Made by a program: the position numbers and the translations under genes. This document shows positions 13,897 to 16,531 of a DNA stretch of 53,082 bases, in pieces (position 1 is the stretch's first letter; the number at the start of each line of letters is the position of its first letter). The DNA lies in the NCBI GenBank assembly GCA_002069125.1, contig MVZN01000017.1, positions 1-53,082 on the forward strand. Direction: 5' to 3'. The notes below the pieces were generated by a model. The model searched no databases and had not been told where the DNA came from. It saw nothing but the letters and a program-made list of their open reading frames with translations. This DNA is from Spirochaetes bacterium ADurb.BinA120. Lineage in GTDB: Bacteria > Spirochaetota > UBA4802 > UBA5368.

Positions 13897-15378
13897 TCAC
13901 TTGTCCTCCAGCACTTCCCTGACAGCCTGGAACAGCTCCTGGAGATCGAACGGTTTAATAAGGACCTTCTCGACGAAGCGGGTCTCGGAGGCGTCCATCA
14001 CCAGAAAATTACCCGAGATAATGATTATACCGGGACGGTTCTTTTTCGTCTTGAAATGCTTCACCACGTCCCAGCCATTGAGGTCGGGCATCTGAATATC
14101 GAGAAGCATGAGGTCGACCGGCTCCCTTTCGACGAAATCTATCGCCCTGGCGCCGGAGTATTCCGATCTCGCGTCGGCGTTTTTTGAGGCGAGCGCCCTG
14201 ACCAACAGGTTGTTTAGCTCAACCTCGTCGTCCACAACCAGTATCTTTTTGCCGACGAAATCGTACTCTGTGTAGTTCTGCGATACCTCCCGATCGAGCG
14301 CTTCCGTCGTGTTGATCGGTATCTTGATGATGAAGGTCGATCCGCGCCCGTGTTCGCTTTCCACCTCGATTGTGCCGTTATGCTCCTTGATGACTCCCGT
14401 AGCGACCGAAAGACCCAGGCCCGTGCCCGGAATGGAGCTCGACCCCAGCGATCCCTTCGTGGTGTAGAACGGGTCGAATATCCGATCCTGCGTCTCATGC
14501 GGTATGCCGGCGCCCCTGTCACGGATACGCACGTATCCCTGGCCCTCCTCCCTGCCCGTCTCTATTGTGATCTTCTTTTCGGGGCTTTCGATCATGGCGT
14601 CGCGGGCGTTTATCATTATATTCATCAAGGCAAGGCTGATTTTGTTGGCGTCGAGGAACATTTCCTCCAGGGCGCCCCTGCGGATGACCTCGATGTTTAT
14701 GCCCTGGGCCGAGAATTCGGGCCTCAATATCTTGACGCATCCATCGACGATGTTCTCGAGGTTTTCCAGCACGCGCTTCGAGGGCTTTTTATTGGCGAAA
14801 ATTAGCAACTGGTCTATCAGATGGCTCGCCCGTCGAATAATTTTCAGGATGGTGCTCATATCCTTTGCCGTCTCGCGTGAAAGGTCGGCCTGGGACAGAA
14901 CAAGTTCGACAAGCCCGTGAATTCCCGCGTTCATATTGTTGAACTCATGCGCGATTCCCGCGGTGAGAGTCGTTATGGTGAGGTTTTTCTCGAGCTCTAC
15001 CAGTTTCTCGCGCGCCATGAGGTCCCTGTCGAGGATGATGTGCAGGAATACATGGCCCTTGTCGCCGTTTTCTATCTCCGCATGAATGATGCGACAGCGC
15101 ACGTCCTCCTCGTATTCTCTGATCCGTATTTTCTGTCTGGTCTTTAGCATCCCGGTGGGAATGACGAAATCCATGTTGTCGACCGGGCAGTTCGAGCCGC
15201 GGCGGGCGCAGTGGCTGAATATCTCCGAACAGCTTTTTCCTATAAGGTCCGAATTTCTATATAGGCGGCGGGCAAAATTGTTTATTCCGATTACCGTCTT
15301 GTTCCTGTCGATGACGATAACGGCGCTCGGAATCGCGTTTATAACGCTCTGGTAATCGAATTTTATCTTTGTGGACAT
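13897..15378 (-). CDS. Hybrid sensor histidine kinase with C-terminal receiver
   Basis: The 493-residue product has a PAS domain (about residues 10-110) containing a Cys-rich part (CSEIFSHC, SNCPVD). Next comes a HisKA-like dimerisation domain with phosphoacceptor His144 in AHEFNN, then a HATPase_c domain (GxG in RDRGAGIP and GTGLGLSVA). A receiver domain with KKILVVDDE and phospho-Asp427 in LLLDIQMPD closes the protein. No transmembrane helix is seen, so it senses a cytosolic signal; the Cys cluster suggests redox, metal or heme sensing but this is inference. The ATG at 15378 starts just before the PAS domain; upstream in-frame codons run into poorly conserved sequence. No separate response regulator is adjacent. 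Confidence 0.9.
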   Translation of the reverse strand: MSTKIKFDYQSVINAIPSAVIVIDRNKTVIGINNFARRLYRNSDLIGKSCSEIFSHCARRGSNCPVDNMDFVIPTGMLKTRQKIRIREYEEDVRCRIIHAEIENGDKGHVFLHIILDRDLMAREKLVELEKNLTITTLTAGIAHEFNNMNAGIHGLVELVLSQADLSRETAKDMSTILKIIRRASHLIDQLLIFANKKPSKRVLENLENIVDGCVKILRPEFSAQGINIEVIRRGALEEMFLDANKISLALMNIMINARDAMIESPEKKITIETGREEGQGYVRIRDRGAGIPHETQDRIFDPFYTTKGSLGSSSIPGTGLGLSVATGVIKEHNGTIEVESEHGRGSTFIIKIPINTTEALDREVSQNYTEYDFVGKKILVVDDEVELNNLLVRALASKNADARSEYSGARAIDFVEREPVDLMLLDIQMPDLNGWDVVKHFKTKKNRPGIIIISGNFLVMDASETRFVEKVLIKPFDLQELFQAVREVLEDK

Positions 15379-15460
15379 ATGCGGTCGGCCGGGTCGTTTT
15401 CTCGCCCTTTTAATACATATACTCCGTAATTCACCGCTCATCCAATAATTTATTACAAGG

Positions 15461-15689
15461 GAACCTCAAAAATTCGATTTTCAACATTCCAGTAAATTGT
15501 AAGTACCGGTAAAATCGATATTTGTGTTTCCAGCCCGCCTTCGGCGGGCGAGAAAACCCAATAATTACAGGTTTCCTTATAAATAGAACCTCTAAAATCT
15601 CAATTTGAAGATTCCCAATTAATTGAAACTACCGGTATAATCGATATTTGTGTTTCCAGCCCGCCTTCGGCAGGCGAGAAAACCCAATT
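15461..15689. repeat. Two tandem imperfect copies of a ~104-bp hairpin-bearing repeat, period 126 bp
   Basis: Copy 1 spans about 15461-15563 and copy 2 about 15586-15689. Both start with GAACCTC, share ACCGGTA, and end in a nearly identical block running from ATCGATATTTGTG to GAAAACCCAAT. Each contains a hairpin: copy 1 GCCCGCC-TTC-GGCGGGC (15533-15549, perfect), copy 2 at 15659-15675 with one mismatch. The spacing is 125 bp at the left end and 126 bp from ACCGGT onward, so there is a 1-base indel. It occupies most of the 346-base gap between the exonuclease and kinase genes. No coding capacity is seen. Confidence 0.85.
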
Positions 15690-15724
15690 CTCCGGAATTA
15701 TCGTTATAAAAAGGCGGCCGTCCC

Positions 15725-16531
15725 TTAGGGCCAGGGCTCCCAGTCCCCCCAATTTCTCAGATATTTTGCGAAGGCCGGAGTTCGCGTTACGCTCTCCTCA
15801 AGGAATTTCTTGGTTTCCTTTACTATGTCCTGTTCCCTCTGGAGTGTAATCTCTCCGGTCATCACCCTTGTCCGTAGAAATACGAAATATGTGTCGAGCA
15901 CGTCGTGAATGCAGTAATCGTTTATCTCACCCGTTTTCCCCTCCAGAAACAGGGGATACACCTCGTTACCGCTGGTCCCCATCTTCCCCGGCTTTCCGAG
16001 CACCTTGGCAAGCAGATTGAGCCCACCCTGCATTTTGATCGCGTTGTAATTGGAAAGCCAGTCGTGCAGATCTATGTGCCGGGTCCCAAACCTGTATCGT
16101 GCGCCGAATTTGTCCTTAAGTTGCCTCTTTATCGGGACACCGTACCGGTAGGCCATTAGCTCCAGCAGCGGGATGTCGAACCCCCTTCCATTGAAGCTGA
16201 CGAGGGAGGCCTCGGGATAGCTGTTCTCCACGCCGTCCCAGAAAAGCCGGGTCATCTCGCCCGGCCTAAACCTCGGAAAATCCAGGGAAACCATCTCTGC
16301 GAGGTTGAACCTCTCGCCAACCTTGGCTACACAGATGGAAACAGGGTATTGGAAGGTCACCGGAATAAACGACGATGCGCCCTGGGTGACTGCCAGCACC
16401 TCCTCCTGAAAATTCGCTATCGCCGTCGCGTCGTCGAGCTCCTGTCCGGGGAACTTGACCATTTTAATCAGACGGGCATCGGGAACCGATTCTATGTCGA
16501 ATACGAGATATTTTACGTCCTTTCTGTCCAA
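15725..16531 (-). CDS. PolB-type 3'-5' exonuclease domain protein (DNA_pol_B_exo2 family)
   Basis: The 268-residue protein matches the stand-alone proofreading-like exonucleases related to family B polymerases. Exo I is FDIES (residues about 11-15), Exo II is SFNGRGFDIPLL (about 113-124), and Exo III is YCIHDVLDTY (about 214-223). All metal-binding acidic residues are therefore present. The role in cells is poorly known; family knowledge predicts 3'-5' degradation of single-stranded DNA or RNA. The start is a TTG at 16531; no ATG fits before the Exo I motif. It lies just upstream of the tandem repeat and follows a strong terminator at 16553-16589. Confidence 0.85.
   Translation of the reverse strand: MDRKDVKYLVFDIESVPDARLIKMVKFPGQELDDATAIANFQEEVLAVTQGASSFIPVTFQYPVSICVAKVGERFNLAEMVSLDFPRFRPGEMTRLFWDGVENSYPEASLVSFNGRGFDIPLLELMAYRYGVPIKRQLKDKFGARYRFGTRHIDLHDWLSNYNAIKMQGGLNLLAKVLGKPGKMGTSGNEVYPLFLEGKTGEINDYCIHDVLDTYFVFLRTRVMTGEITLQREQDIVKETKKFLEESVTRTPAFAKYLRNWGDWEPWP

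Follow-up and report, generated by a model that had tools for sequence, protein, structure and literature searches.

ERIC is one imperfect palindrome. ERIC/RU-1 of enterobacteria (127 bp) is similar in length to the spirochaete element reported here and, like it, is intergenic and MITE-like (excerpt of PMC2759123); the spirochaete element is set apart by description, each of its ends pairing with an internal partner of its own and a partner-type transposase having been identified. The IS5-derived MITEs BrickBuilt, MITE293 and MITE700 of Porphyromonas gingivalis are likewise short, geneless and multicopy; as in the spirochaete element, their ends recur in full-length IS5-family elements of their organism group, and there are some target duplications (excerpt of PMC4596501). 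Unlike the P. gingivalis MITEs as that excerpt describes them, the spirochaete element is ~109-120 bp long, has two separate hairpins, is near-constant in length across the order and carries no internal tandem repeats. QMITE1 and QMITE2 of Coxiella and Correia of Neisseria are also MITEs with direct repeats, decaying copies and stable folds, and differ in size (~190-400 and 204 bp) and in the 7-9 bp duplication of QMITE2 (excerpt of PMC10969869). REP/BIME repeats with their RAYT are likewise intergenic high-copy hairpins; they differ in unit length, inverted-repeat ends and target duplication (excerpt of PMC2817692).

The spirochaete element is short, has inverted-repeat ends and a target duplication and occurs in many dispersed copies, the features by which a MITE is defined, and its ends are common to an autonomous IS5-family element, one mark of an IS5 origin. 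It is a new MITE family with IS5-type ends, of a known kind. The family does not appear in the titles and abstract openings listed by searches of the open-access PubMed Central literature, which is weak evidence of absence.

The repeat pair in the window

The window is the whole analysed stretch of 53,082 nucleotides of contig MVZN01000017.1 from Spirochaetes bacterium ADurb.BinA120. An earlier note had described a tandem intergenic repeat with 126-bp spacing and a unit of ~104 bp. A repeat search of the region returned one direct family of 95 nt, with copies at 15468-15562 and 15594-15688 (84% identity over 95 nt, start-to-start distance 126 bp). The two copies are real, and the true unit is longer than had been proposed. 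Copy 1 extends on the plus strand from tip to tip (GGGAACC ... GGTTTCC, taken from the sequence) over 15459-15576, with a covariance model match at 15455-15582 (112.2 bits). Copy 2, on the same strand, covers ~15584 to ~15703, both ends being inferred from alignment; its left tip is degraded (TAGAACC), its right tip strongly so, and its model match lies at 15580-15708 (95.1 bits). Both copies were picked up in the whole-genome model search, and a later scan of the window by itself returned copy 1 on the plus strand without copy 2.

The left arm of copy 1 (15459-15490, plus strand) consists of the end GGGAACC and a degenerate internal partner, CATTCC, and is the remnant of a left palindrome when compared with the family consensus GGGAACCTCTAAAAATTAAATTTTTGAGGTTCCC. 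Its right terminal repeat (15565-15576, plus strand) reads TTACAGGTTTCC. The GC hairpin of copy 1, GCCCGCC-TTC-GGCGGGC (15533-15549, plus strand), is perfect, with the loop TTC. That of copy 2 (15659-15675, plus strand) has the same loop and one mismatch at 15672, where an A replaces the G found at 15546 of copy 1; the single change described earlier was thus recovered, as were the words ACCGGTA and ATCGATATTTGTG in both copies. The sequence CCGCCNNNGGCGG occurs once in the whole window against 0.18 expected. Folding of 15456-15586 gave z = -4.1 (plus strand) and -4.3 (minus strand). The same 7 nt, TTATAAA, follow copy 1 (15577-15583) and copy 2 (15704-15710), as seen by comparison of the flanks. 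Copy 1 is flanked by the unlike 4-mers ACAA and TTAT and thus retains no target duplication.

The pair occupies the gap between two genes of the same direction, both on the minus strand, in agreement with the intergenic position given in the earlier note. Upstream is a predicted PolB-type 3'-5' exonuclease (15725-16531; PF10108, E 1e-49), and downstream a sensor kinase/response regulator (13897-15378; HATPase PF02518 and PF00072 by domain matches), the start of which was set at the methionine of MSTKIKFD, also kept in two genomes of the genus (G001 and G003). The kinase leader at 15396-15407 (GTTTTCTCGCCC) and the 3' hairpin arm of copy 1 at 15546-15557 are perfect inverted repeats of each other over 12 nt. 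The leader partner aligns with ordinary, non-identical sequence in G001, and the match may be chance.

The pair might have been exapted, for example as a processed UTR element (3' or 5') in the mRNA of the exonuclease or the kinase, its 3' block being preserved by that role. Identity between the copies was 52/57 in 15510-15566 vs 29/42 in 15468-15509 (Fisher p 0.007), a contrast that favours such a role but whose block limits were picked after seeing the data. Core and hairpin are also the best-kept part of the other own-genome copies, gene conversion between tandem copies would give the same pattern, and the region yielded no terminator-like site and a sole promoter-like match at shuffle level; exaptation is considered unlikely. 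A bidirectional terminator was rejected separately, the stem order TTTT-CCC...GGG-AAAA being wrong.

Dispersed copies, ends and the IS5-type partner

In the DNA search proposed in the earlier note, the repeat had 60 matches at E up to 10 in the genome of the window (G000; 3.51 Mb in 216 contigs, 96% complete). A covariance model of the GC-hairpin form, R1, was built from an alignment of 25 own-genome copies, and with 150 of 1448 first-look candidates scored it returned at least 93 matches at E up to 1. Collapsing of 76 of these 93 (the 17 omitted were all below 40 bits) to non-overlapping places left at least 51 copies, of which 42 score at least 50 bits and 38 at least 75 bits. Many places match R1 on both strands because the element is quasi-palindromic. 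Eight pairs of adjacent places are no more than 500 bp apart, and two of these pairs are nested cases. Further head-to-tail clusters were seen at C112:749-1052 and C39:6185-6478, so the tandem arrangement is not unique to the window. A variant subfamily was also observed in this genome (L018, L022, L023 and L027), with ends roughly AGGGNAGTCC...GACTACCCT and two of its copies nested in ordinary ones.

G010, a genome of the same order and another family, gave at least 88 R1 matches, all 88 scored candidates being positive. With one mismatch allowed, the end motif AGGSAACCTCTAA was counted 172 + 166 times in G010 (reversed control, 2 + 3) and 20 + 18 times in the own genome (reversed control, 4 + 5). 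The consensus sequences of the two genomes differ at 6/130 columns. Two of the G010 loci (L132:442-546 and L131:406-511) are short forms of ~105 bp with both ends kept and the GC hairpin absent, perhaps hairpin deletions. Across 39 genomes, the own included, R1 matched 15 at E up to 0.01, weakly outside the own genome and G010 (next best 9e-9). The same-genus genomes G001-G004 had 0, 6, 2 and 0 weak matches, and an R1 search of G023, from the genus of G010, had none. With stricter filters, 3/296 genomes of the phylum were matched at E 1e-8 (the own, G010 and G031). The patchy occurrence suggests horizontal spread or differential loss. Plasmid and phage collections searched by blastn with copy 1 gave no match, nor did viral contigs searched with one exact core pattern. 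The element is found well beyond this locus, with relatives elsewhere, where the earlier note had held that an element confined to it would argue for local duplication rather than a repeat family.

The element ends in GGGAACCTCTAA...TTAGAGGTTGCC, terminal inverted repeats that are imperfect at tip position 3 or 4. Its consensus length is 120 bp in the own genome and G010, and 40 copies from four other genomes measured 108-115 bp; at 108-120 bp it is therefore too short for a transposase gene. For target duplications, 50 G010 copies were read with their flanks, of which one was dropped. Identical flanking 4-mers were found in 25 of the 49 usable copies against a shuffled mean of 2.00 (maximum 7), other offsets giving 0-2; the matching 4-mers were varied (ACAA, TATT, TATG, AGAT, TGGG, TACT). 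In the own genome, where 10 of 29 copies were dropped because the tip was not found or lay at an end, 8/19 had identical 4-mers against a shuffled mean of 1.32 (maximum 6). No perfect duplication was present in the other 24/49 and 11/19 copies. At two loci (L018 and L022) a 121-bp variant element with TTAA on each side is inserted within the left arm of an ordinary copy, in the same orientation as its host at one locus and in the opposite orientation at the other. TA or TTAA had first been read as the target of these nested insertions, a reading given up in favour of 4 bp on the G010 flanks.

An intact insertion sequence (IS) was located in G023 with a 51-aa piece of a transposase remnant from G010. 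It is 1265 bp long (L144:541-1805), has TTAA on both sides and the left end GGGAACCTCTAAAAATTAA, and its transposase matches NF033581 (IS5 family) with 256 bits (cut-off 140; E 3.2e-76). At the left end, the IS and the MITE consensus agree at 19/19 positions (L144/L157). At the right ends the repeat is common to MITE and IS and the tips are unlike (GGCAACC vs CGGAACC). The G010 remnant, C-terminal, is the sole DDE_Tnp_1 match in that genome, and the exact end TTAGAGGTTCCC lies 140 bp past its stop. Taken alone this end could be a stray MITE end, the genome being rich in them; in the intact IS the end is 138 bp from the stop, nearly the same distance. Broken or partial relatives whose ends are identical or close (at most 3 differences) were found in G003 at both ends, in G015 at the left and right on two contigs, and in G002, G007 and G010 at the single end found. 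The broken G003 copy has six in-frame stops and unequal side 4-mers, ATAA and TAAA. An IS in G035 has TTAA at each side and ends that depart somewhat from those above, about GGGGRCTTCTAAAAA. The 4-mers beside the IS copies are accordingly TTAA/TTAA in G023 and G035 and ATAA/TAAA in G003, a sample of three in which TTAA is a word common in AT-rich DNA. Past the terminal repeat, resemblance to the MITE was seen at only one of the five IS left ends, L160 (1 of 1000 shuffles as good, vs 251-830 for the other four), so the MITE may be of the kind that shares just its ends with the IS.

A protein search with the IS transposase at E 1e-10 matched 8/46 genomes of the order and gave 0 matches in the own genome, so the copies there look non-autonomous. 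An intact transposase with matching ends was found neither in the own genome nor in G010, the latter having the C-terminal remnant.

The repeat is very probably a non-autonomous DNA transposon, a MITE, for which an IS5-family DDE transposase would probably act in trans on the ~12-19-bp ends, insertion duplicating 4 bp of an AT-rich target. Once the lineage had separated from its closest sampled relatives, one copy would have inserted into the gap between the exonuclease and kinase genes and would then have undergone tandem duplication. The GC hairpin is an internal part of the element. The grounds for this reading lie in the sequences: dispersal, the ends, target duplications, nesting, intergenic placement and, in relatives, an IS whose ends match. 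We infer that an IS5-type transposase moves the MITE and that the MITE may have entered these genomes horizontally. The first suggestion of a MITE-like family spread in this genome is borne out by dispersed copies, inverted-repeat ends, 4-bp duplications, nesting and the IS5-type element of a relative with matching ends.

A REP/BIME-like family had been offered beside it, a repeat that would be mobilised by RAYT, a Y1 tyrosine transposase. Like such repeats, the element is an intergenic short palindrome in many copies, and PF01797 genes are present, three in the own genome and one in G010. A REP/BIME repeat would be a 20-40-nt palindrome with a linked RAYT and no target duplication; the element, by contrast, is a unit of ~120 bp with inverted-repeat ends and varied 4-bp target duplications. 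The search for RAYT that had been proposed gave four Y1 loci in the two genomes, none flanked by the element within the ~1.5 kb read on each side, the exceptions near Y1 being confined to L142 (one two-mismatch end motif and two degenerate hairpin-like hits). Mobilisation by RAYT is regarded as extremely improbable.

Hairpins, loops and layout across the order

Scored over 44 of the 50 G010 copies, the GC hairpin plus the left palindrome had 55 double-change cells vs 14.6 by shuffling, and pairing end to end had 1 vs 1.1. The 3-nt loop was TTC or GAA in 26/29 own copies and in 41/48 readable G010 copies (2 of 50 were skipped); TAA and TTA, mutual reverse complements, made up 4 of the other 7 loops in G010. 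On a loop-masked tree of 67 copies, which is weak, the loop states changed at least 16 times (shuffled mean 21.6, minimum 16), which points to some inheritance and many changes. A template-switch signature reported for yeast genes consists of arm homogenisation and spacer inversion, including ttc/gaa swaps (excerpt of PMC8604942). On this analysis, template switching during replication appears the likeliest cause of the arm covariation, ahead of selection for an RNA: the covarying arms and the TTC and GAA loops would come from arm homogenisation with spacer inversion, the alternative being selection on the fold. A UUCG-type tetraloop on either strand is an alternative reason for the two common loops.

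A conserved structured RNA in many copies (a riboswitch, sRNA or mRNA-processing element) would agree with the stable fold, z about -4, and with local hairpins whose arms covary. It would also agree with the better conservation of core and hairpin than of ends among own-genome copies, a set gathered through its resemblance to the window pair; in G010 the left arm is about as well conserved as the core and hairpin stem. Against this reading, all four relative orientations are found among the intergenic copies, both TTC and GAA loops occur, and target duplications are present. No Rfam family was matched, the one hit being at chance level (E 1, 13.7 bits vs a gathering score of 50) and outside the element, and the duplicated regulatory RNA raised in the earlier note found no credible match there. 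A structured RNA is judged very unlikely.

Several of the weak R1 matches in relatives are 109-111-bp elements with the same ends and an AT-rich inner hairpin; others look like unrelated hairpins. When aligned, the AT-hairpin and GC-hairpin forms have a core in common, roughly AACTACTGGnAAAATCAGGACTTA. A model of the AT-hairpin branch, R2, was built from nine elements of seven genomes. At E 1e-5, with E-values that are rough, it matched 23/39 genomes of the order, seven by construction and 16 others, including G000 and G010. Forty AT-hairpin copies were read from G035, G031, G012 and G020. Their left end can pair with an internal partner just downstream (GGGAAC/GTTCCC; GGTTAC/GTAACC in G020) and their right end with a separate internal partner (GGGCAC/GTGCCC; GGGAAC/GTTCCC in G020), the right partner being lost in some G031 copies. 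Covariation was assessed on 32 sequences, 27 of the 40 copies read and 5 of the 9 R2 elements. Standard pairs filled 96.1% and 86.5% of the cells of the two end helices, which held 23 double-change cells vs 4.7 by shuffling; counted by pairs, 4 have a double change, a figure of the usual order that 145/500 shuffles reach. A few lineages, chiefly G020, account for the double changes, which hence reflect few events. Pairing end to end gave 1 double-change cell vs 5.2, with tip position 4 unpaired between the ends in 31/32 sequences. One long end-to-end hairpin was rejected, as neither G010 nor the 32-sequence set has covariation for it. A right-end partner inside the G010 core (GGCATACTC) was paired in 94.8% of cells with no double change and is not claimed for that subfamily.

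The per-end hairpin layout across the order is an unusual feature of the MITE family. As a tentative proposal, which we regard as possible and rather less likely than its opposite, two-hairpin MITEs of Spirochaetota may form a lineage spanning the order, with each end required to fold with its own internal partner (left GGGAAC/GTTCCC, right GGGCAC/GTGCCC) and the ends kept different against mutual pairing. The layout would be kept across families and the inner hairpin replaced (AT-rich in the other genomes sampled, GC here), with the hairpins taking part in recognition or copying and arms and loops evolving by template switching.

Equal flanking 4-mers were found in 10/10 G035, 6/10 G031, 6/10 G012 and 7/9 G020 copies (one G020 copy was dropped). 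They are always ATAA or, in G020, TTAT, so that they are not separable from element sequence without empty sites. Among these 40 loci (L200-L239), ATAA mostly stands beside the GGGAAC tip and, in G020, TTAT on the other side, an oriented preference absent in G010. A single-strand element of IS200/IS605 type would have two end hairpins, mostly ATAA at the tip and ends that are not exact inverted copies, and the two-hairpin layout with distinct ends and the ATAA on both sides of 10/10 G035 copies resemble this. Such PATE-like elements, however, have neither target duplication nor inverted-repeat ends. The varied matching 4-bp flanks of G010 and the TTAA/TTAA nesting are the mark of staggered-cut DDE insertion, and the terminal sequence is common to IS5-type elements; a single-strand mechanism is rated very improbable.

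A second element was noticed in three genomes (L071, L079 and L081, in G017, G025 and G033), with ends about GACTTGTTGCAAAAC...GTTGCAACAAGTC and a central CCCCGCCGCC-TTC/GTA-GGCGGCGGGG hairpin. It is perhaps a different MITE family of similar layout.

History of the insertion and its meaning

Of 26 own-genome loci, 25 were clear of picked ORFs of at least 100 aa, where ~6/26 would be expected at random (19.7/26 overlapping), a rough test since the ORFs were picked mechanically. Mean pairwise identity is 0.81 among G010 copies vs 0.69 among own-genome copies, so the latter look older. The exonuclease gene was found in 4/5 genomes of the genus, the own included. In G001 and G003, where the kinase lies beside the exonuclease, homology to the window breaks off at 15453 and 15457 and picks up again at 15725-15727; there is no element. 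The leftover gap sequence of these two genomes gave no alignment, so the site is unoccupied and is not a perfect empty site. The contig of G002 has another gene at that place, and G004 gave no hit. The window insertion is lineage-specific within the sample, the site being unoccupied in both informative relatives.

A tree of 79 copies places the two window copies as sisters (FastTree support 0.905). Copy 1 has a raw identity of up to 0.773 with some other family members vs 0.742 with copy 2, and the sister grouping rests on shared differences. Because the copies are sisters and have the 7-nt right flank TTATAAA in common, the pair likely arose by local tandem duplication of the element together with its flank. 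Family membership and a local duplication, set against each other at the outset, probably both apply to this pair. The window copies are probably immobile relics.

A repeat that recurs in poorly annotated, uncultured spirochaetes is hereby explained, and the likeliest type of transposase to mobilise it is named. Its many copies, with their TTC/GAA loop states and co-changing arms, form a data set for template-switch mutation in bacterial hairpins. They also carry a warning that arm covariation by itself is no proof of a functional RNA. If the two-hairpin reading is true, the hairpins would belong to element recognition or copying.
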